A stretch of 44,254 nt of DNA, from NCBI GenBank assembly GCA_903858685.1, contig CAIOJR010000156.1:1-44254 (forward strand), read 5' to 3'. This DNA comes from an uncultured Caulobacterales bacterium (GTDB lineage Bacteria; Pseudomonadota; Alphaproteobacteria; Caulobacterales; Caulobacteraceae). The notes beneath the pieces were generated by a model. That model was not told where the DNA came from. It made no database searches and saw only the letters and a list, made by a program, of their open reading frames with translations. Positions 30,815 to 44,017 of this stretch are shown here, piece by piece; the first letter of the stretch is position 1; every line of letters begins with the position of its first letter. The translations under genes were made by a program, and so were the position numbers.

Positions 30815-32203
<1,389 letters not shown>

Positions 32204-34259: not shown

Positions 34260-35888
34260 TCAGGCCTCATGCAGCCAGCTCCGGAGGATCGAAACCGATT
34301 CCTCCGGATGATGTTCAATAAACTCCGACACCTTCTTGACCGACGAGGCGCGGACCTGACCCTCGATCTTGGCGATGTCGATCTTCTGGTCGAACTCGCC
34401 CTGGGGCAGGGCGGGCATGCCGCCGCCTTCGACCGCGAATTGCGCCGTCCCGCCCTCATAGACCCCGCCGCCGCCTGGAGCCAATTGCAGGGCGCGGCCG
34501 CCCGCGCCGACGGCGACGCTCTGGCCAGGACGCAGCATCGGGCGCACCACGAACAGAATGAGCAAGGCGGTCACGATCACCATCACCACCAGTTCGGCGA
34601 TGCGGATCATGTCGCTTTGGTCGAGGCTGAAGGGAAGCGCGCTGATCGGGGCTTCAGGCGGGTGATCAAAGCGCACATTCAGCACCTGCACCTGATCGCC
34701 GCGCTTTTCATCAAAGCCGATCGCGGCGCGCACCAGGGTGTCGATCCGTTGCATTTCCTCGGCTGACCGCGGCGCATAGGCGCCGGGCTTGCCGCCGGGG
34801 CCGATGGGCGTCACGCCATCCACGGCCACCGACACGGACAGCTTCTTCAGCGTGCCGGGCTCCTGGATGGTGGTTTTGACAGACTTGGAGATTTCATAAT
34901 TGGTGGTCTCATCGGTCTTGTTGGCCGAAGAGGTCTGGTTGGCCCCCCCGCTCAGATTCTGGGCGCCGGGCAGGTTCTGAGAGGCTGAGACCCCGCCCAG
35001 GCCTGAGGGTTTGTCCTCCTTGCTGGAATCCTGACCCGTGGAGGTGGAGCGCACGACCTGACCGTCGGGGTCGAATTTTTCTTCCTGGGTGGTGACGCGG
35101 CTCTTGTCCACATCGGCGGCGACATTGACGCGCACCTTGCCCACCCCGACCACGCCCTCCACCAGGTCCTTCACCTGATGGCGGATGCGTTCCTCAATAT
35201 CGGTCTGTTCCGCCGAGGCTGAGCCTCCGCCCGCGCCGGGCTCGTCCATGCCCGCCAGCATGGCGCCGGTCTGGTCGGTCAGCGCCACCCGCTGTGGCTT
35301 GAGGTTGGGCGTGGCGGCGGCGACAAGATTGCGGATGGCGCGGATCTGATCGGGCGTCAGCTTGCGTCCGCCGGTCTCGACCATCACAGAGGCGGACGGC
35401 TCGTCCTGATCCTGATCAAACAGGGCGCGCTTGGGGATGTTGAGCAGCACGCGCGCCTGGGTGACGCCCTGGATGGAGCGAATGGTGCGGGCCAGTTCGC
35501 CTTCGGCGGCGCGTTTGGCGTTGATGTTCTGGATGAAATCGGTCTGTCCCAGCGCCGGGGCGGAATCAAAGATTTCATAGCCCACCGAGCCGGAGGTCGG
35601 CAGCCCCTTGGAGGACAGCATCAGGCGCGCCTGATCAACCTTGTCGCGGTCAACCATGATCACTGTGCCGCCGCCCTTGGCCTCGTACTTGATCCCCGCC
35701 TGATCGAGCGACTGGGTGATCTGGGAGGCTTCTTTTAGGTCGAGATTGGAATAGAGCAGCGCCTTGGCGTCGCCGCCCACATGGGTCATCAGCATCACAA
35801 GCACAGCGACCAGCCCGAAGGCCGATCCCATGATCGCCGCCAATCTTCCGACGCCGAAGCGTTCGATCGCCTGGAGCAGTCCCTGCAC
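34260..35888 (-). CDS. fliF: Flagellar MS-ring protein FliF
   Basis: A 542-residue MS-ring subunit. Transmembrane helix 1 is at residues about 18-37 and helix 2 at about 440-462 ([18 protein letters not shown]). Ring-building motif 1 starts [13 protein letters not shown]; the RBM2 region has [26 protein letters not shown]; the long periplasmic loop is rich in Ser, Asn and Gly near 300-330. The C-terminal cytoplasmic tail that binds FliG contains [34 protein letters not shown]. It is the first gene of the early class II operon; a CtrA-like box lies 69-84 bp upstream of the ATG. Confidence 0.97.
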
Positions 35889-35956
35889 GCTTACCTCATC
35901 CCCCGCAGACGAGACGCCAGACCCGTCGCCGCTAGGCAGGAATTACCGGGTGTCTG

Positions 35957-35972
35957 GTAAACGAGGCTTTAA
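35957..35972 (-). promoter_or_regulatory. CtrA-like box upstream of fliF
   Basis: On the minus strand TTAA-AGCCTCG-TTTAC, against the CtrA consensus TTAA-N7-TTAAC, with one mismatch. It is 69-84 bp upstream of the fliF ATG, with a TAATTC-like -10 about 10 bp beyond it. CtrA activates the Caulobacter fliF promoter, so this fits the family arrangement. Confidence 0.65.
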
Positions 35973-36052
35973 GAAGTCGCTTGGATTGGCGGCCAATTGT
36001 AAACTTGCGGGCTCTGGCCCGACCGGCGCTCATGACCTGCATCAAAACAGCA

Positions 36053-36079
36053 ACGCCCCGCATACGGGATGCGGGGCGT
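36053..36079 (-). terminator. Terminator of sciP
   Basis: Perfect 11-bp stem ACGCCCCGCAT / ATGCGGGGCGT with a 5-base loop, followed on the minus strand by TGCTGTTTTG. It lies 70 bases beyond the sciP stop and upstream of the fliF promoter, insulating the two. Confidence 0.85.
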
Positions 36080-36148
36080 CGTTGTCTGACAGTTTGGCCA
36101 AGACCGGGACCCTGGCGCTTGACCACGGTTTCGGTCTCCGTCCTCGCT

Positions 36149-36433
36149 CTATTCCCGGTATTGCTGGATGCGCGTGGTGCGCAGTCCTGCAAGCCCGTGT
36201 TTGTCGATCGCCTGTTGCCAGGCGATGAACTCTTCATTGGTCAGCTTGTAACGATCACAAGCGTCGTCAAAGGTCAGAAGGCCGCCGCGAACCGCAGCCA
36301 CCACCTCAGCCTTGCGCCGGATCACCCATCTTTGGGTGTTCGCCGGCGGAAGATCGGCCAGGGTCAAAGGAGCGCCCGTAGGACCGATCACGTATTTTTC
36401 GCCCTTATTGTTCAGGCGTTGTTGCTGCAACAT
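36149..36433 (-). CDS. sciP: CtrA inhibitor SciP (DUF1153)
   Basis: A 94-residue DNA-binding protein of the SciP family (DUF1153). The hallmarks are KYVIGPTGAPLTLADLPPANTQRWVIRRKAEVVAAVRGGLLTFDDACDRYKLTNEEFIAWQQAIDKHGLAGLRTTRIQQYR, which includes a winged helix-turn-helix-like core. In Caulobacter SciP accumulates late, binds CtrA-activated promoters and blocks RNA polymerase recruitment, closing the flagellar and CtrA regulon in swarmer cells. Its ATG is preceded by GGAAGG. The gene lies between flgE and fliF exactly as in Caulobacter and has its own promoter region (163 bp) and terminator. Confidence 0.97.
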   Translation of the reverse strand: MLQQQRLNNKGEKYVIGPTGAPLTLADLPPANTQRWVIRRKAEVVAAVRGGLLTFDDACDRYKLTNEEFIAWQQAIDKHGLAGLRTTRIQQYRE

Positions 36434-36482
36434 GGCTGTCAGGCCTTCCCATCACCACAGGGCGGCAGATTACCCAACGCGA

Positions 36483-36498
36483 CATAACATCGGCTTAA
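36483..36498 (-). promoter_or_regulatory. Weak CtrA-like box upstream of sciP
   Basis: On the minus strand TTAA-GCCGATG-TTATG, matching the first half of the CtrA site exactly and three of five bases of the second. It is 50-65 bp upstream of the sciP ATG. sciP is CtrA-activated in Caulobacter, so the location is sensible, but the sequence match is moderate. Confidence 0.4.
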
Positions 36499-36596
36499 TC
36501 TGGATAGTAAAAATTTGGTCACCATTTGTGTTTCCTTATGAGACACTTAGGCGTCCCAAGTCTTTATCTCGAAGTTTGAATTATTAAACTCCGTTA

Positions 36597-38033
36597 TCAT
36601 CTAATAAGCCCGAGAAGATCTTGCAGCATTTGGTCTGATGTCGTGATGATCTTTGAAGAAGCTGTGTAGGCTCTTTGCGTCACGATCAGTCCTGTGAACT
36701 CCGACGACAGGTCAACAGTCGATGCTTCGAGCGTTTGTGGTGAAATAGCGCCAGCGCCGCCGGTGCCTGCGGACTTGAGATTATAGGAGCCGCTGGCGTT
36801 GGAGACCTGGTAGGCGCCGCCTGACACTGCAGCCAGACCATCCGGGTTAGGAAAGGTTGCGACGGCGACCTGAGCGATTTTTCGCGACACGCCGTTGTCG
36901 TAATTGGCGGTGACATAGCCCTGATTGTCGATTGTGACATTGGACAGGTTGCCAAAATTGGTGCCATTGGTCGTCAGCGACTGGGTCACGGACTGGCTGG
37001 CGAACTGTGTCAGACCGCCCGGCGCATTGCCGATGCTCAACCCGATCGACTGGGCGCCGATGCCCAGTCCCGACGCCCAGTTGACCGCGCCCGCGCCGGG
37101 CGCGGCGGCGGTCGATGCGCCGATATTGATGGAAGGCGAGGCCGGAGTTGAAAACAGCGTCGTATGCGCCGGGTCGTACTGGCCGGTTGCGGTGAAGGCC
37201 ACGGTGCCAGTGGCGATCTGACCATTGGACAGGCCCGCTCCGGTCGTCACGTCAGAGGCCGGGACCGCAACCATTTCAGCATACCACTGATTGGCCACGG
37301 TGGATTTGAGGAAGTCGATCTGGACGGTGTGGGGGCCGCCCTGACTGTCGGCCACGGGCACCTGGATGGAGAAGTCCGGCTTGACGCCCGTTCCCGTTGC
37401 GGCGTTGTACATGGCCATGGAATTGGTGGCGGCGTTATAGGCGCCCACGCCTGCGGGAACCGCGACGGCCGCGGTCGCAGCCGTTCCCGCCGTCGTCGTG
37501 GACTGAAGGTTGGCGTTGATGCTGACCTGGGTGGTCGGCGACGCCGCTCCGCCCTGGGTCAGGACGTTGATGGTCTGAAGCGACGTGACGCTGGTGGGAT
37601 TGGTGGTGATGGTCCCGTTGGAGTCAGCGACCCAGCCCTGCAGATAAAATCCGGCTGTATTCTTCAGATACCCCTGATGGTCCACCGTGAACGAACCCGC
37701 GCGCGTGAACAGGCGCGGTTCGGTGGCGCTTGTATTGGTGGGATCTGAGGTCGTGACGAACATGCCCGATCCGTTGATCGCCAGATCGGTATTGGACGAG
37801 GTTTGGTTCAGCTGTCCCTGCTGTGACACCAATAGTTGCGGGATCGCTGACACGCCGCCGGCGGAAAAGATTCCATTCTGGGCCGTCGAGGTCACGATGG
37901 ACGAAAAGTCCACCTGGGTCTGCTTGTAGCCGATGGTGTTGGAGTTGGAGATATTGTCGGAGATGGCGCTCACCGCGGCGGAGTTCGCCACCAGGCCGGT
38001 CACCCCGGCGGCCAGTGCGCTATTGATGCTCAT
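36597..38033 (-). CDS. flgE: Flagellar hook protein FlgE
   Basis: A 478-residue hook subunit. The N-terminal rod-like helix INSALAAGVTGLVANSAAVSAISDNISNSNTIGYKQTQVDFSSIV and the C-terminal STVDLSSEFTGLIVTQRAYTASSKIITTSDQMLQDLLGLIR are the conserved terminal regions of hook and rod proteins, while the middle (residues 100-400) is a low-complexity, threonine- and alanine-rich variable domain. It is shorter than the roughly 590-residue Caulobacter FlgE. It follows flgD by 41 bp and is the last gene of the fliK-flgD-flgE unit. Subunits are exported and polymerise outside the cell under the FlgD cap. Confidence 0.96.
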   Translation of the reverse strand: MSINSALAAGVTGLVANSAAVSAISDNISNSNTIGYKQTQVDFSSIVTSTAQNGIFSAGGVSAIPQLLVSQQGQLNQTSSNTDLAINGSGMFVTTSDPTNTSATEPRLFTRAGSFTVDHQGYLKNTAGFYLQGWVADSNGTITTNPTSVTSLQTINVLTQGGAASPTTQVSINANLQSTTTAGTAATAAVAVPAGVGAYNAATNSMAMYNAATGTGVKPDFSIQVPVADSQGGPHTVQIDFLKSTVANQWYAEMVAVPASDVTTGAGLSNGQIATGTVAFTATGQYDPAHTTLFSTPASPSINIGASTAAAPGAGAVNWASGLGIGAQSIGLSIGNAPGGLTQFASQSVTQSLTTNGTNFGNLSNVTIDNQGYVTANYDNGVSRKIAQVAVATFPNPDGLAAVSGGAYQVSNASGSYNLKSAGTGGAGAISPQTLEASTVDLSSEFTGLIVTQRAYTASSKIITTSDQMLQDLLGLIR

Positions 38034-38074: not shown

Positions 38075-38767
38075 TCATACGCTGGTGCTGACGGATCTGA
38101 CGCTGGACACCGGCACAGTGGTCTGGCCGATCCCAAGCACGGTCTGTCCCGCGGCGTTTTGCTGGACGCTGGTGACGACGCCGGCCACCTGCGGCGTGGC
38201 GGAGACCGTGCCGCCATAGGCGTCCTGCGCCGAGATCGAGAGGGTGTAGACTCCGTTCGGCAAGGCCCGACCGGTGGAATCCGTCCCCGGCCAGGTGAAG
38301 GTGTTCGCGCCTGTGGTGAGCGCGTTGAGATTGCCGCTCCAGACCGCCGTGCCGGAGGAATTGGTGATCGTGGCCGTCCCTGACACTGCGCCGGAGCCCA
38401 ATGTGTACTGCCAGGACGCTGTCGCGCCGGTCTTGTTCACATCGGCCGTATTGGCCACGACCGATTTGCCGATCATGTTGACGGCGCTGGAGACGCCTTG
38501 ACCGCCGCCGCTATTGGACACCAGTTGTTGCAACAACTGATTGGACAGAAGTTGCTGCTGAACGCCATTCATCTCCACCAACTGTTGGGTGAAGGCGTTG
38601 GTGTCCATCGGCGAGGTTGGATCCTGGTTCTGAAGCTGCGTGGTCAAGAGCTTCAGAAAGGTGTCATAGCTGGAGTTCAGCGTGCTCTGGCCGGACGAAA
38701 TCTGCGCCGCCGCGCTGGTCGAGGTTGTTGCGCTGGCGGCGGTCGTGGCTGCGACTGCGGTGGTCAT
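38075..38767 (-). CDS. flgD: Hook-cap protein FlgD
   Basis: A 230-residue hook-assembly scaffold. The N-terminus STLNSSYDTFLKLLTTQLQNQDPTSPMDTNAFTQQLVEMNGVQQQL is the conserved FlgD segment; the C-terminal half has the FlgD Ig-like/Tudor domains with FTWPGTDSTGRALPNGVYTLSISAQDAYG. FlgD caps the growing hook and is discarded later. It is 13 bp after fliK and 41 bp before flgE. Confidence 0.95.
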   Translation of the reverse strand: MTTAVAATTAASATTSTSAAAQISSGQSTLNSSYDTFLKLLTTQLQNQDPTSPMDTNAFTQQLVEMNGVQQQLLSNQLLQQLVSNSGGGQGVSSAVNMIGKSVVANTADVNKTGATASWQYTLGSGAVSGTATITNSSGTAVWSGNLNALTTGANTFTWPGTDSTGRALPNGVYTLSISAQDAYGGTVSATPQVAGVVTSVQQNAAGQTVLGIGQTTVPVSSVRSVSTSV

Positions 38768-38780
38768 ATTGCGTCCCTCC

Positions 38781-40487
38781 TCAGATCCTGATGTCCAGGC
38801 CGCGTTTCGCGCCGTTTGCGGCGGTGAGCGCCGCCATGTCGGCGGTCTCTGAAAGGCGGGTCATGGCGTTGAAAGCTGCGGCGCCGCTGCTGGACGGGCG
38901 TCGCTGGTCGTCTGAATTCTGCCAGGCGCCATTGGAGGCGGAGCCCCCGCCATCGGCGCTGGCGGCCGTCTGAAAGGTCAGGTCGCTGGCGCCGAGGCTG
39001 AAGCCTGCGTCCTGCAGTGCCTGGCGCAAAGCGCCGGCGTTATTGGCGAGCGCGCTTGCGGAGTCCGATTTTTCGAAGCTGAGGGTTGCGGATAGTTCGC
39101 CCTTGGCGCCGATCGCTACCGAGACATTGACCTTGCCCAGCCCATCGGGATCGAGCGCCACATCAAACCGTGTGGTCTTTGAACCCAGTTTGTTGACGAT
39201 CTGCGCCGCCAGACTGGTCACCGTCTGGGATGTTGTCCGCAGGCCGGAAGGCGGGGCGTCGGTCGTCTGGCCCTGCACGGCGACGGACTGTGCGCCCGCA
39301 GCTTCGGCGGCGGCGGTTTGGCTGGACAGATCGACCGGCCCGTCCGGCGTGGGTTGGGCCGCCGTGGCCAGGATTGAGGCGTCTGCGCCGTTCCCCCCCG
39401 ATCCGTTCGATGATCCGGAGTGGCGCCCCGCGCCGCTGATGGCGCTCACCTCGGCGGCAAGTCCGCTGTCGCCGTTTGCAGTCGCGTCCGGCGTGGGGCC
39501 CGTCGTTGCGGCGACCAAACCGGACGCGCCTGTTGGGCGTCCTGAGGCCGACCCTGCCGTTGCGCCGGACCGGGCGCCGCTGGTCGTGTTGGAGGCGCTG
39601 GACGCGAGGCTCTTGCCGGACAAGGGGGCGAGCCCTGCAGAGATCGTGGAAAGGCTGACCGCGCCGCCGTCAGCACCGCCCTGGCTGGCGTCCGCGGCAT
39701 TCAGCTGGGCGATGGTCAGGCCGTCGGCGATTTTGCGGTCGGCTGTAACCTCCAGGTTTGTCGGCGCGTCGGGCGGGGATGCAGGCGCGGGCGCCGGTGC
39801 GGCTGCGGCTGTCGCTGAAGGCGCGTCACCGCCGTTGGACGATGTGGCCCTGTCTTTTGAGCTGAACGTTGCGTCGGCAGGCGGGGCGTCGGCAGGCGGG
39901 CTTGGCGCTGTCGGGGCTGCAGCCGCCGCCAGAATCGCAGCATCGGGTGCAGCGCTTGCCGCGGCGATCTCGCTCGTCGTCGATTGGGCTGCGTCGTCCG
40001 CCTTGCTTGCCGCAGATCTATTGGCGGCGTTGCCCCGTCCGGTCTGGCTGGTCGCGCTGCCGTCGCCGGCGCTGTTTGTCGGACCAGCGGAATCCGCCGC
40101 GTTTTGGACGGTCGTGGCGACGGCCGACGCCTGACCATCCCGTGCAGACGCACTGGAGGGTCGGGCCTGGGATGTGTTCCTGTCCGCCGCCGTGGGGGCT
40201 GCCCCATCCCCGCCCGAATGCGTTCTCGCGCCTGGCGCTGACCTGTCCGTCCTGGCGGTCGCCGCCACGGTTGCGCTGGCTTCTGTCGTCAGGGCCGCGT
40301 TCTGGGCCGCGTTCTGGGGGGTGGTTTCAGTGGGCGCATCAGCGGCGCTGATCAGGCTTGTAAAGTCGGACGCCGCCGCCGCCGTCGCCGCTGCGGCGCG
40401 GCTGGAGCGCGACCGGTCTGAGGACGCTGTCGACCTGCTGGCGGTCGCGGCGGAGTCAGGTGCGTGCGCTGGGCTGGCGGCTGAGGT
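38781..40487 (-). CDS. fliK: Flagellar hook-length control protein FliK
   Basis: A long alanine-, serine- and proline-rich protein (about 568 residues from the TTG at 40487) with the FliK C-terminal domain: LAAQIVNKLGSKTTRFDVALDPDGLGKVNVSVAIGAKGELSATLSFEKSDSASALANNAGALRQALQDAGFSLGASDLTF, the FliK/Flg_hook pattern that takes part in substrate switching. The linker (residues about 10-400) is disordered and alanine-rich. An upstream GTG at 40607 keeps the frame open but lies inside the -24 element of the sigma-54 promoter and so cannot be the start. The frame between 40490 and 40540 has poor third-base GC, and a different frame looks coding there (see findings), so the N-terminus is uncertain. 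Confidence 0.85.
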   Translation of the reverse strand, partial: TSAASPAHAPDSAATASRSTASSDRSRSSRAAAATAAAASDFTSLISAADAPTETTPQNAAQNAALTTEASATVAATARTDRSAPGARTHSGGDGAAPTAADRNTSQARPSSASARDGQASAVATTVQNAADSAGPTNSAGDGSATSQTGRGNAANRSAASKADDAAQSTTSEIAAASAAPDAAILAAAAAPTAPSPPADAPPADATFSSKDRATSSNGGDAPSATAAAAPAPAPASPPDAPTNLEVTADRKIADGLTIAQLNAADASQGGADGGAVSLSTISAGLAPLSGKSLASSASNTTSGARSGATAGSASGRPTGASGLVAATTGPTPDATANGDSGLAAEVSAISGAGRHSGSSNGSGGNGADASILATAAQPTPDGPVDLSSQTAAAEAAGAQSVAVQGQTTDAPPSGLRTTSQTVTSLAAQIVNKLGSKTTRFDVALDPDGLGKVNVSVAIGAKGELSATLSFEKSDSASALANNAGALRQALQDAGFSLGASDLTFQTAASADGGGSASNGAWQNSDDQRRPSSSGAAAFNAMTRLSETADMAALTAANGAKRGLDIRI

Positions 40488-40586
40488 CAAGGCTTTACCA
40501 AAGGGACGATGGCCAGGACCACTTCGGTGATCTTGGCCAATCAGGATGCGGCCGCGCTTCCTGCGCAGACTGTTGGGAAACGTGAA

Positions 40587-40602
40587 GCAACCGCCGGGCC
40601 AG
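40587..40602 (-). promoter_or_regulatory. Sigma-54 promoter of fliK-flgD-flgE
   Basis: On the minus strand TGGCCCG-GCGG-TTGC, with GG and GC separated by 10 bases as required, one base off the consensus TGGCACG-N4-TTGC. Transcription would start near 40576. The leader contains no ATG, and the likely fliK start lies at 40487 or 40540. Confidence 0.85.
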
Positions 40603-40618
40603 TCCACAAAAACCTATT

Positions 40619-40631
40619 TAAACAATTGATA
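40619..40631 (-). promoter_or_regulatory. IHF consensus site, hook-operon side
   Basis: On the minus strand TATCAA-TTGT-TTA exactly matches the IHF consensus WATCAA-N4-TTR. It lies between the sigma-54 promoter (40587-40602) and the ftr-like palindrome (40678-40692), where a bend would bring FlbD to the polymerase. Confidence 0.75.
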
Positions 40632-40677
40632 TTCATGTATTTTTCTGAAAATCACGATGCGCCGGATTGTTCTGGTG

Positions 40678-40692
40678 CGGCGTTTATTGCCG
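40678..40692. promoter_or_regulatory. FlbD-type (ftr-like) palindrome 1
   Basis: CGGCG-TTTAT-TGCCG, one base off a perfect CGGCA-N5-TGCCG. It is about 80-100 bp upstream of both sigma-54 elements (hook operon to the left, flgK to the right), the usual enhancer distance. Half-sites TGCCG (40720-40724) and CGGCA (40747-40751) lie nearby. Confidence 0.6.
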
Positions 40693-40781
40693 GGCGCCAA
40701 TGGCCGAACAGGTCGTTCCTGCCGAGCTTGGGCGATGTGCGAAACACGGCAAGGGTGTGACGTCGACAGCCGACGTCGAAC

Positions 40782-40796
40782 TGGCGCCAGTTTTGC
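40782..40796 (+). promoter_or_regulatory. Sigma-54 promoter of flgK-flgL
   Basis: TGGCGCC-AGTT-TTGC with GG and GC 10 bases apart, close to TGGCACG-N4-TTGC. The start would be near 40808, leaving a 135-base leader before flgK. It faces away from the minus-strand sigma-54 promoter. Confidence 0.85.
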
Positions 40797-40843
40797 GCGG
40801 CTACATCCGCCATGAAAGACTCAAATTCGTCAGAATTGTTAAA

Positions 40844-40856
40844 AATCAACAGGTTG
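40844..40856 (+). promoter_or_regulatory. IHF consensus site, flgK side
   Basis: AATCAA-CAGG-TTG exactly matches WATCAA-N4-TTR. It lies downstream of the flgK sigma-54 promoter, between it and a second ftr-like palindrome, so it mirrors the arrangement on the other side. Confidence 0.65.
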
Positions 40857-40891
40857 CGTTGCCTTGACGCTGCCGCGATCCTTTTGCGCCC

Positions 40892-40906
40892 CGGCAAAAC
40901 CTGCCG
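40892..40906. promoter_or_regulatory. FlbD-type (ftr-like) palindrome 2
   Basis: CGGCA-AAACC-TGCCG, with perfect 5-bp arms and a 5-base spacer, in the flgK leader about 85-100 bases downstream of the predicted start site. FlbD sites downstream of late promoters are known in Caulobacter. Confidence 0.65.
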
Positions 40907-40942
40907 AGTGACGTGGAAGTGTTGCCGAGGGGAGACCCGGTA

Positions 40943-43063
40943 ATGGCGACACTCGGCGGAATATTAAGCATCGCCTCAACGGCGCTTCGAACGGCTCAGG
41001 CGGGTTTGAACGTCGTTTCGGACAATGTCAGCAACGTCAATACAGCTGGCTATGTCCGAAAGGTCATGAATCAGGAGTCGCTCAGCTATGCTGGAACCGG
41101 CGCAGGCGTCGGCGTCGCCAGCGTCACCCGCGTTGCAGATCAGTATCTGCAGCAGGCCAGCCTGACAGCGACAGCCTCTTCCTCCAATTATGCCGCTGTC
41201 GCAGCCAATCTGGATCAGGCTCAGGCGTTGTTTGGCGACCCGTCAGCGACGGGATCGCTGTTTTCGCAACTCGACCAGGTGTTTTCCGCCTTTTCGTCTT
41301 TGGCCACCTCTCCCAGCAGCGTTCAACAGACCCAGTCCATCAGCACGCTGACGCAGTTTTTCAACAACGCCTCCCAGATATCGAACAGTCTGACGACGCT
41401 TCAGGCTCAGAGCAATTCCCAGGTCACGTCTGATGTGACCCAGGTCAATACGCTCCTGTCCCAGATCGACTCGCTGAACGCCGATATTTCTCGCGGCGGC
41501 GTCAGCAGTTATGATGTCACCGGCTATCAGAACCAGCAGAGCCAATATATTGACCAGCTTTCCAAGCTGATCGACATCAAGGTCAGTCCCTCGACGACGT
41601 CCGGCGGCGGGGTGACCATCAGGGGGTCGGACGGCACCGCCCTGACCGGGGTTGGACTTGGCCCTGCCGTATTCAGCTATGATCAGTCCAATGGCAGCGG
41701 ACAGTTGATGTTCACGCCGCCCGGCGGGCAACTGCAGCCCTATGGCTCTCGCCTGACCAGCGGAGAGATCGAGGGCCTGCTGCACTCTGTCAACACAGAC
41801 ATTCCCAACTTGGCGCAGCAACTGGCGCAGTTCACGGCCTCAACGGCGTCCGCGCTGAATCAGGCCGCCAACGCCAGTTCGCCAACGCCCGCGCCGGCCA
41901 CCCTGACCGGAAAGGATACCGGTCTGGATGCGCCAACGGCGATTGCAGGCTTTACCGGCAAGACAAATATCGCCGTGGTCAATGCTCAGGGCGTTATCCA
42001 GAAGCAGGTCGCGATCGATTTCAGCGCCGGGACCATCACCCCGGCAGGCGGCGCGGCCACTGCATTCACGCCCGCCAGCTTTGTCGCCACGCTCAACACG
42101 GCCCTCGGAGGGACGGCGACGGTCAGCACCAGCGGCAATGTGCTGAGCATCGCCGCGAGTGGGGCAGGCAACGGAGTCGCAATCGCCGATGACGCGACCA
42201 ACCCCAGCCAGTCCGGCGGCAAGGGGTTCTCCCAGTATTTCGGCTTCAACGATATCGTCAGTTCGGCGGGATTGGCTGACTACAATACCGGTCTGACGGC
42301 TGCCAGCCTGTCCGGATTCAATTCCGGGGCGGTCAAGTTCCGCATCGCCGGCGCTGACGGCACGGACGTGGCTGATATTTCGGTGACGCCGACGCCGGGA
42401 CAGACCCTTGGCGCCCTCGTCAATCAGCTCAACGCCAATAGCGGCGGGCTCGGCCTCTACGGCACGTTCACGCTCGACAGCAAGGGCGCGCTGAGCTTCG
42501 CGCCGAAGACTGGCTCGAACACGACATTGAGCGTCGTTTCCGACACGACCTCGCGCAATGGAACCGGGCCCAGCTTGACCGGTCTGTTCGGTCTGGATCC
42601 GTCTATCCGCGCCGGTCGGGCGACGGGGTTTTCGGTCAATCCCGCGCTCGTCCAGCAACCGGGCCTGATCCCCAACGCCAAGCTGAATCTGTCTGCGACG
42701 GCGCCAAGTTCGGCGCTCACCACAGGCGACACGTCTGGCTATGACGCACTGTCCCAGGCCGGGCAAGCTGTGCAGAATATCGCCGCCGCCGGGCAGGCGG
42801 TCGCCCAGACGGTCAGCCTGTCCAACTATTCCGCCAGCTTCGCCGCCAGCATCGCCACCTCAGCCTCTACCGCAGACGCAAACCAAAAGGCCGCCGCCGC
42901 CAGCGCGACCTCGGCAACCAATCAGAGATCGTCGGTCGAAGGCGTCAATCTGGATGAAGAGCTTATCCATCTGACAACCTATCAAGAGGCATATAATGCC
43001 TCCGCGCGCCTGATTACCGCGGCCAAGGACATGTACGACGCCCTCTTGGCCGCCGTGCCCTAG
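40943..43063 (+). CDS. flgK: Hook-filament junction protein FlgK
   Basis: A 706-residue hook-associated protein 1. The conserved N-terminus is LGGILSIASTALRTAQAGLNVVSDNVSNVNTAGYVRK and the C-terminus EGVNLDEELIHLTTYQEAYNASARLITAAKDMYDALL; the middle is a long variable domain rich in Ala, Thr, Ser and Gly. I start at the ATG at 40943, which has GAGGGGAG upstream; a longer frame from 40913 is not needed. FlgK joins the hook to the filament with FlgL. It is transcribed rightward from a sigma-54 promoter, 10 bp upstream of flgL. Confidence 0.96.
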   Translation: MATLGGILSIASTALRTAQAGLNVVSDNVSNVNTAGYVRKVMNQESLSYAGTGAGVGVASVTRVADQYLQQASLTATASSSNYAAVAANLDQAQALFGDPSATGSLFSQLDQVFSAFSSLATSPSSVQQTQSISTLTQFFNNASQISNSLTTLQAQSNSQVTSDVTQVNTLLSQIDSLNADISRGGVSSYDVTGYQNQQSQYIDQLSKLIDIKVSPSTTSGGGVTIRGSDGTALTGVGLGPAVFSYDQSNGSGQLMFTPPGGQLQPYGSRLTSGEIEGLLHSVNTDIPNLAQQLAQFTASTASALNQAANASSPTPAPATLTGKDTGLDAPTAIAGFTGKTNIAVVNAQGVIQKQVAIDFSAGTITPAGGAATAFTPASFVATLNTALGGTATVSTSGNVLSIAASGAGNGVAIADDATNPSQSGGKGFSQYFGFNDIVSSAGLADYNTGLTAASLSGFNSGAVKFRIAGADGTDVADISVTPTPGQTLGALVNQLNANSGGLGLYGTFTLDSKGALSFAPKTGSNTTLSVVSDTTSRNGTGPSLTGLFGLDPSIRAGRATGFSVNPALVQQPGLIPNAKLNLSATAPSSALTTGDTSGYDALSQAGQAVQNIAAAGQAVAQTVSLSNYSASFAASIATSASTADANQKAAAASATSATNQRSSVEGVNLDEELIHLTTYQEAYNASARLITAAKDMYDALLAAVP

Positions 43064-43072
43064 GAGTAGAAT

Positions 43073-44017
43073 ATGACCCGGGTATCTACAGCAGGTCTGT
43101 TTAGCGTTGCTGTTCTTGCAATCAATAATGCACAGCAGAATCTGGACAAGACCGGTCAGCAAGCCGATTCAGGCAAGATCGCCTCCGATCTGGCGGGTTA
43201 TGGCGGGTCTGCTGAACAAATCACGGCGTCGCGCACGGTGCAGTCGCGGATTCAGAGCTATCTGACCAATGGACAGGTTCTGTCCGGCAAGCTCGACATT
43301 CAGGACCAGAGCCTCCAGGCGGTCCAGACGGCGGCTGGGTCGGCCAAGACCGCCATCAGTTCCGCCGTCGCGGCCGGGGATGGCTCCTCCCTCATCACAG
43401 CCTTGCAGAGCGCGTTGTCGTCAACGGTGACGGCGCTCAACACGCAATATAATGGACAATACGTCTTTGCCGGCTCGCAGACCTCCACGGCGCCGGTCGC
43501 GGCGTCTCAATTGTCGGATCTGACGGCGGCGGGCGCCATCGCCAATGTGTTCAGGAATGACCAGAGCGCGCCCACCAACCGCATTAATGACAATACGGTC
43601 GTCACGACAGGCCAGGTGGCCAGCAATGTCGCCACGCCGCTCTTAAGCGCGCTGCAGCAGGTCGAGGCGTTCAACCAGGGTCCCAATGGTCCGATCACGG
43701 GAACCTTGACTGCGGCGCAGACCACCTTCCTGCAGGGTGTGCTGGCCAGTTTCACCTCGGCCCAGACCACTGTGACCTCCGCCGTGGTGCAGAACGGCGC
43801 CGTGCAAAGTCAGCTGACCAATACGACCGCGACCCTGACCAGTCAGAACGACTCGCTCACCAATACCTTGAGCAATCTGACCGACGTGAACGAAGCCCAG
43901 GTGGCGACCCAGTTGCAGATGGCCCAGTATGCCCTTCAGGCGTCGGTTCAGGTCTATAACACCCTGAAAGCCTCATCTCTGCTGAATCTGACGTCCAGCA
44001 CCGCGACCTCGGCTTAA
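43073..44017 (+). CDS. flgL: Hook-filament junction protein FlgL
   Basis: A 314-residue flagellin-like protein. The N-terminus MTRVSTAGLFSVAVLAINNAQQNLDKTGQQADSGKIASDLAGYGGSAEQI and the C-terminus LTDVNEAQVATQLQMAQYALQASVQVYNTLKASSLLNL follow the helical coiled-coil pattern of FlgL and flagellins. It is identified as FlgL rather than a flagellin by size and by place directly behind flgK. It forms the second junction layer between hook and filament. It ends 23 bp before a strong terminator. Confidence 0.95.
   Translation: MTRVSTAGLFSVAVLAINNAQQNLDKTGQQADSGKIASDLAGYGGSAEQITASRTVQSRIQSYLTNGQVLSGKLDIQDQSLQAVQTAAGSAKTAISSAVAAGDGSSLITALQSALSSTVTALNTQYNGQYVFAGSQTSTAPVAASQLSDLTAAGAIANVFRNDQSAPTNRINDNTVVTTGQVASNVATPLLSALQQVEAFNQGPNGPITGTLTAAQTTFLQGVLASFTSAQTTVTSAVVQNGAVQSQLTNTTATLTSQNDSLTNTLSNLTDVNEAQVATQLQMAQYALQASVQVYNTLKASSLLNLTSSTATSA

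Follow-up and report, generated by a model that had tools for sequence, protein, structure and literature searches.

The window (the whole stretch of DNA analyzed, 44,254 nucleotides from an uncultured Caulobacterales bacterium) carries divergent fliK-flgD-flgE and flgK-flgL genes, with an intergenic control region between them. The genes concerned are as follows.

30815–32203, minus strand: gene taken to be flbD, sigma-54 activator with AAA+ and Fis-type HTH domains
36597–38033, minus strand: flgE, hook protein (nearest model NF040922; Pfam FlgE domains above cut-off)
38075–38767, minus strand: flgD (Pfam FlgD domains above cut-off; NCBIfam FlgD models under cut-off)
38781–40490, minus strand: fliK (PF02120), likely TTG start at 40490
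40943–43063, plus strand: flgK (TIGR02492 above cut-off, FlgK_D1)
43073–44017, plus strand: flgL-like hook-associated protein, or flagellin N-terminal domain (TIGR02550, PF00669)

The flgE product scores 646 bits against NF040922 ('flgE_Caulobact'), under the cut-off of 750, and the flgL-like open reading frame is under the cut-off for TIGR02550 and barely over that for PF00669. For flgK, the listed frame begins at GTG 40913, and the likely start is ATG 40943, the residue at which the alignments of same-genus FlgK relatives begin, from their own start codons. On the other side, fliK probably starts at TTG 40490, because GTG 40607 sits 5' of the predicted transcript start and because the TTGACC start context is seen again in three same-genus loci.

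Flagellar regulators

The preliminary description of this DNA had placed flbD in the same block, 8 kb away, and the gene is indeed found there, at 8.4 kb. The activator is taken to be FlbD from that naming and from its phylogenetic spread, with orthologues (63–86% identity) occurring in families f1, f3, and f4 and in two f5 genomes. The genome encodes FlbD, together with FliX, RpoN, and three HU/IHF-family genes located elsewhere, among which IHF subunits are not told apart from HU.

A strong FlgK match (E 1e-76 or better) occurs in 42 of 60 related genomes, all 42 of which have FliX and 41 of which have an FlbD orthologue (at least 63% identity). The one remaining genome (G009) has the control region; no FlbD orthologue was found in it, the best match being an activator at 42% identity. 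Among the 18 genomes whose FlgK match is weak or missing, 13 are without FliX and 14 without an FlbD orthologue, yet four of these genomes (G034, G039, G046, and G051) have both FlbD and FliX. Both FlbD and FliX are also found in the six second-family genomes examined (6/6).

Promoters, IHF sites, and palindromes in the control region

The scan of the intergenic region gave the following sites.

40587–40601, minus strand: sigma-54 promoter of the hook operon (fliK-flgD-flgE), TGGCCCGGCGGTTGC, exact consensus match
40619–40631, minus strand: IHF site TATCAATTGTTTA between hook promoter and upstream palindrome, 9/9 match
40678–40692, no strand: upstream FlbD-type palindrome (ftr1-like), CGGCGTTTATTGCCG, 8/8 in the arms
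40710–40724, no strand: second upstream palindrome, degenerate, AGGTCGTTCCTGCCG, 6/8, right half TGCCG
40782–40796, plus strand: sigma-54 promoter of flgK-flgL, TGGCGCCAGTTTTGC, exact consensus match
40844–40856, plus strand: IHF site AATCAACAGGTTG in the flgK leader, 9/9 match
40892–40906, no strand: downstream FlbD-type palindrome (3' enhancer), CGGCAAAACCTGCCG, 8/8 in the arms
40913–40927, no strand: second downstream palindrome, degenerate, 5/8, TTGCCG right half only

A sigma-54 (-24/-12) sequence is, therefore, present at each divergent unit, an ftr-type palindrome lies 5' of the hook promoter and another 3' of the flgK promoter, and an IHF consensus site is found between each promoter and its enhancer. 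All six elements of the preliminary description were recovered, the two degenerate sites being additional to it, with one correction of position (the minus-strand sigma-54 site spans 40601–40587, and had been said to begin at 40602) and one of form. Both palindromes had been given as CGGCA-N5-TGCCG-type; the one at 40892–40906 has five-base arms, but in that at 40678–40692 the left arm has G in its fifth place, which makes the form CGGC-N7-GCCG, with CGGC/GCCG arms. The palindrome form used here derives from that description and from conservation, rather than from a published ftr consensus. Both IHF sites match WATCAANNNNTTR exactly, which we take to be the IHF consensus.

The predicted transcription starts are near 40575 (hook operon) and 40808 (flgK). 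With ATG 40943 as the probable start of flgK, the predicted leader is some 135 bases long, and the downstream enhancer would therefore lie within it. Measured to the -24 T of the hook promoter, the minus-strand IHF site is at 18 bp, the upstream palindrome at 77 bp, and the degenerate upstream site (40710–40724) at 109 bp. On the flgK side, 3' of the -24 T, the plus-strand IHF site is found at 62 bp, the palindrome at 110 bp, and the degenerate site (40913–40927) at 131 bp. The two promoters are 181 bp apart, and the upstream palindrome is 104 bp 5' of the flgK -24 T.

Next to fliF, a CtrA-type site is found at 35957–35972 (minus strand), about 70 bp 5' of the open reading frame; it matches 8/9 positions of TTAA-N7-TTAAC, presumably the CtrA consensus, and is the sole match of such quality in the window. 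An FlbD-type palindrome of at least 7/8 is absent from 35880–36620, on the upstream side of fliF in the window. In this the fliF region is unlike that of C. crescentus, where an ftr4 site lies upstream of fliF according to the available text of PMC3930126.

Motif rarity

The two sigma-54 promoters and the two perfect IHF sites claimed earlier proved to be the sole exact matches in the whole 44-kb window, all inside the control region. Exact CGGC-N7-GCCG palindromes number eight in the window, two of them in the control region. Two others (2028–2042 and 2047–2061, one of them CGGCAAAACACGCCG) are 19 bp apart in overlapping open reading frames, about 38 kb from the control region.

In 5000 dinucleotide shuffles of 40580–40942, at least one sigma-54 match appeared 50 times and two never (0/5000); at least two IHF sites occurred in 3/5000, at least two palindromes in 3/5000, and two sigma-54 sites together with two palindromes in 0/5000. 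Genome-wide, the sigma-54 pattern gives 65 matches (27 for the reversed control), and a narrower palindrome pattern, CGGC-N6-TGCCG, gives 135 (298 for the reversed control). Single motifs being weak at this scale, the case is carried by clustering and conservation.

Conservation within the family

FlgK is present in 230 of 249 genomes of the window's family, which is also that of Caulobacter. Among the matches listed, 193 upstream regions were compared, 185 from the family and eight from two other families, the third family being represented by two loci only (L039 and L040). A duplicate (L050, the same as L005) and two gene fragments without an upstream region (L029 and L202) were left out of the family set, and G067, starting at residue 35, was left out of the FlgK matches. 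C. crescentus is not among the loci compared. As the genomes of L041, L042, L043, L045, L046, and L048 also occur in the second-family set described below, both sets together amount to 242 distinct loci.

The flgK sigma-54 site is found in 190/193 loci, a TTGAA variant being allowed in genus g15 only, and the scan rule finds no flgK promoter in 3/185 family loci. This leaves 182 family loci, of which 171 have a hook promoter, that is, a minus-strand sigma-54 site 5' of the flgK promoter. Complete loci, in which a hook promoter is joined by a palindrome on either side at a plausible distance, number 142/182 and come from 16/22 genera; all six loci of the window's genus are among them. Relatives sharing this gene order thus keep the boxes, whose lack of conservation there the preliminary description had named as a refuting outcome. 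At the thresholds used, 40/182 loci are incomplete (11 in g15, seven each in g3 and g22, four each in g7 and g2, two in g4, and one each in g8, g10, g11, g16, and g17). The complete set is found in no locus of six of the 22 genera (g2, g4, g8, g10, g11, and g17; ten loci).

Genus g15 has its own flgK promoter variant, with TTGAA in place of TTGC at -12 in 17/25 promoters (e.g., L030, L186, and L194); in 16 of these 17 loci, the downstream palindrome is found at 107–109 bp. On the hook side, where the scan demanded GC, 23/25 g15 loci have a canonical TTGC site.

An exact (8/8) downstream palindrome occurs +60 to +170 from the flgK -24 T in 130/182 loci (mononucleotide shuffles predict 1.3), and one of at least 7/8 in 172/182 (21.9 predicted in the same way). 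The site is 107–111 bp from the flgK promoter in 142/182 family loci, and most of the remaining sites are at 96–98, 117–122, 128–132, or 139–142 bp. Upstream sites of at least 7/8 are 74–79 bp from the hook promoter in 83/182 loci, and the distance from upstream site to flgK promoter ranges from 17 to more than 300 bp.

IHF sites are also repeated at set positions. A site of at least 8/9 occurs at offset 60–65 from the flgK -24 T in 75/182 family loci (0–4 in seven equally wide control windows), and a minus-strand one stands at 17–18 bp, measured to the -24 T of the hook promoter, in 50 of the 171 loci with a hook promoter, although other hook-side positions (6–7 and 41 bp) repeat too. The window's own distances (77, 181, 62, and 110 bp) all fall within classes occupied among relatives. 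Its degenerate sites have counterparts as well. The TGCCG right half is found at offset 126–133 in 88/182 family loci, against 0–1 in six control windows, and some relatives have fuller sites near the counterpart of 40913–40927, 128–132 bp downstream. On the upstream side, L002, L003, and L004, out of the six loci available for the window's genus, carry a full 8/8 site, CGGCGTTTCCTGCCG, 110–111 bp from the hook promoter.

The second family of the order

FlgK is found in 58/60 genomes of a second family of the order, from which 55 upstream regions were taken; L213 (replaced by L048), L218 and L220 (cut short), and G305 (close to the end of a contig) were left out. The flgK promoter is present in 50/55 loci, and 44 of these 50 have a minus-strand sigma-54 candidate. 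Palindrome pairs with 20–23 bp spacing on both sides occur in 21/50 loci overall and in 19/27 loci of the largest genus (g43), where they are typically 64 and 85 or 75 and 97 bp from the hook promoter, the downstream pair being typically 135 and 156 bp 3' of the flgK promoter. In this family, the upstream site can be as near as 24–29 bp to the flgK promoter.

Helical phasing of the spacings

Phasing was evaluated on distances merged by genus, by a scan over periods of 9.5–12.5 bp, with jittered sets (6 bp at most) as the reference, to which counts out of 5000 refer. In the family, the distance from the flgK promoter to the exact downstream site has a period of 10.6 (15 clusters, R 0.92, 0/5000), that from the hook promoter to the exact upstream site one of 11.2 (23 clusters, R 0.76, 0/5000), and that from promoter to promoter one of 11.5 (57 clusters from 17 genera, R 0.43, 0/5000). 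Taking all exact upstream sites, the distance to the flgK promoter gives R 0.45 (30 clusters, 63/5000); in the 83 loci with the upstream site 74–79 bp from the hook promoter, it is phased with a period of 11.4 (32 clusters, R 0.59, 0/5000). No phasing is seen between exact upstream and downstream sites in the family (1371/5000). In the second family, the corresponding counts are 297/5000 (promoter to promoter), 35/5000 (hook promoter to upstream site), 1/5000 (upstream site to flgK promoter), and 9/5000 (flgK promoter to downstream site), upstream and downstream sites being weakly phased (181/5000).

The clusters are few, and recurrent values also lift R at unrelated periods, R at five control periods being 0.28–0.52 for exact downstream and 0.21–0.56 for exact upstream sites. 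Distances from the hook promoter (3548/5000) or from the downstream site (2384/5000) to an anchor codon in FlgK show no phasing, and the control from flgK promoter to anchor codon is not fully clean (R 0.39, 68/5000); 11/182 loci have no anchor and some anchors are misplaced. Tetramer controls within the intergenic region (median R 0.24; top ten 0.43–0.52) are without discriminating power, because a whole interval shifting in turns predicts high R.

Since relatives share ancestry, a nearest-sequence pairing was added. Among 83 nearest pairs, the promoter-promoter distance differs by 0–3 bp in 42, by 4–8 bp in none, by 9–13 bp in 14, by 14–19 bp in four, by 20–24 bp in six, and by more in 17. 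This test is free of site preference; in the other pair tests, the search for the downstream site covered 90–125 bp and preferred values near 108, and that for the upstream site preferred values near 77, so small differences are favored. The distance from the best upstream site to the flgK promoter differs by 4–8 bp in 2/75 pairs. Control distances to the FlgK codon give five pairs at 4–8 bp and six at 9–13 bp (from the flgK promoter, 85 pairs), or five and four (from the downstream site, 78 pairs). In the second family, two of 21 promoter-promoter pairs fall at 4–8 bp and three at 9–13 bp.

These data suggest that promoter-enhancer and promoter-promoter distances vary among species by steps of about 10.5–11.5 bp, and that the parts of the control region, both promoters included, tend toward matching helix faces across the 242 loci. 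The phased spacing, above all that between the promoters, is a modest new part of this analysis; among the titles listed by a literature search restricted to papers outside subscription, none reports phasing or family-wide conservation of the region.

Comparison with known systems and proposed mechanism

The preliminary description had likened the region to the divergent hook/HAP region of Caulobacter with its sigma-54 promoters, and gene context, sites, and conservation all agree with this. Very probably, the locus is a control region for class III flagellar genes in a member of the Caulobacter family, and the counterpart of C. crescentus flbG/flaN. Elements, order, conservation, and helix-phased distances are here read from the sequence and its comparison with relatives. 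Common to both regions are divergent genes with two sigma-54 promoters, an upstream ftr site for the hook operon, and a downstream ftr site with IHF for the flgK operon. Unlike in C. crescentus flbG-flaN, the second upstream and second downstream sites of the window are degenerate, the latter keeping its right half only. We take flbG and flaN to be the hook and flgK operons, respectively, and the assignment of ftr1 versus ftr2/ftr3 is in part likewise our assumption. The flbG-flaN region of Caulobacter, with ftr and IHF sites, is reportedly the subject of work by Gober and Shapiro (1990, 1992) and by Mullin and Newton (1989, 1993). The flgK-flgL operon of Caulobacter is an early example of a sigma-54 promoter with a natural downstream enhancer.

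The IHF-palindrome pair in the flgK leader had been called unusual. This view was dropped in light of 1992–93 titles among the references of PMC3096577, which concern IHF elements and a 3' enhancer of a Caulobacter flagellar promoter, and the ftr2/ftr3 elements downstream in flaN/flbG. The arrangement is widespread in the family.

According to the available text of PMC3096577 and PMC3930126, FlbD with FliX, plus IHF, activates RpoN-dependent later flagellar genes of Caulobacter after early assembly. Binding proteins and activation steps can be carried over from the Caulobacter work to propose a mechanism. RpoN-polymerase would wait as a closed complex at both divergent promoters, and FliX would render FlbD active after early basal body assembly. 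On the upstream palindrome(s), FlbD would drive the hook operon, IHF bending the intervening DNA; on the leader palindrome(s), about 110 bp downstream, it would activate flgK-flgL, where IHF would likewise bend the DNA separating promoter and enhancer. Judging only from the phasing, both promoters and the upstream enhancer would sit in one shared geometry.

Two other systems offer partial parallels. For Vibrio qrr promoters (sigma-54, activated by LuxO), natural promoter-enhancer loop lengths are clustered about 11 bp apart in the available text of PMC4740811, much like the steps described here. In the same portion of that source, however, LuxO sites are upstream of single promoters, and a downstream enhancer or a divergent pair is unreported. 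The fla2 genes of Rhodobacter sphaeroides, also an alphaproteobacterium, likewise have divergent flagellar promoters; unlike the window, they are CtrA-controlled, with RpoN uninvolved and FlbD absent, as far as the accessible text of PMC6180460 goes.

Probable enhancer assignment and alternative readings

It had been proposed that the flgK promoter could use either the upstream palindrome or the downstream pair. The comparison favors the downstream half of this proposal, with the site at 107–111 bp in most family loci; the upstream half fares less well, the corresponding distance varying from 17 to more than 300 bp. The far steadier spacing makes the downstream site most likely the chief enhancer of flgK, and the upstream site most likely that of the hook operon.

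This assignment fits a reading in which two independent promoter-enhancer units share one intergenic region, any promoter-promoter phasing being inherited or due to steric packing, and this reading is considered fairly probable. Many loci have an IHF site and a palindrome at a characteristic distance from each promoter, the downstream site tracking the flgK promoter closely and the upstream site tracking the hook promoter. Steric packing has a possible basis in the second family, whose upstream sites, as near as 24–29 bp to the flgK promoter, mean that phasing could be avoidance of a steric clash. Nevertheless, promoter-promoter phasing holds after genus merging and in the nearest-pair test, which would not be expected of a contact-free origin.

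A single shared complex, in which upstream-bound FlbD would serve both promoters or form one oligomer with the downstream FlbD and so time both operons jointly, is regarded as possible but rather unlikely. In its favor, the promoters are phased to each other in the family (R 0.43, 0/5000; 0/83 pairs at 4–8 bp), and the upstream site is phased to the flgK promoter both in the 74–79 bp class (R 0.59, 0/5000) and in the second family (1/5000). Mullin and Newton (1993), going by the title, reportedly found that regulated expression of divergent flaN and flbG requires ftr2/ftr3, which also speaks for joint control. Several of the distances do not follow, however: the enhancers are unphased to each other in the family (1371/5000) and weakly phased in the second (181/5000), the full set of exact upstream sites reaches 63/5000 in the family, two of 75 best-site pairs fall at 4–8 bp, and the second family gives 297/5000, with 2/21 pairs at 4–8 bp, for its promoters. 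The phasing, thus, lends modest support to the idea of a shared complex, without showing it. The weakest reading, a chance cluster of degenerate motifs in GC-rich intergenic DNA, may draw on the missing genome-wide enrichment of the palindrome pattern, but was dropped as vanishingly improbable, given that two sigma-54 sites arose in 0/5000 shuffles and that complete sets are conserved at fixed distances in relatives (142/182 family loci, 16/22 genera, with conservation in the second family also).

In its furthest form, coupling would mean that the divergent promoters and both FlbD enhancers are held on set helix faces throughout the order as one looped complex, with the flgK promoter inside the loop and a shared FlbD assembly firing both operons together. 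This is put forward as a speculation that we consider doubtful. Some coupling, with the upstream site perhaps serving flgK as well, is hinted at by how that site and the hook promoter are phased relative to the flgK promoter, and steric packing could yield such phasing too.

A 3' enhancer at the flgK operon is widespread in the family and also occurs in the second family. Spacings among the relatives form a natural series that tolerates changes by whole helical turns and seldom shows half-turn ones; 3'-enhancer looping and the possible coupling of the divergent operons are therefore directly testable.
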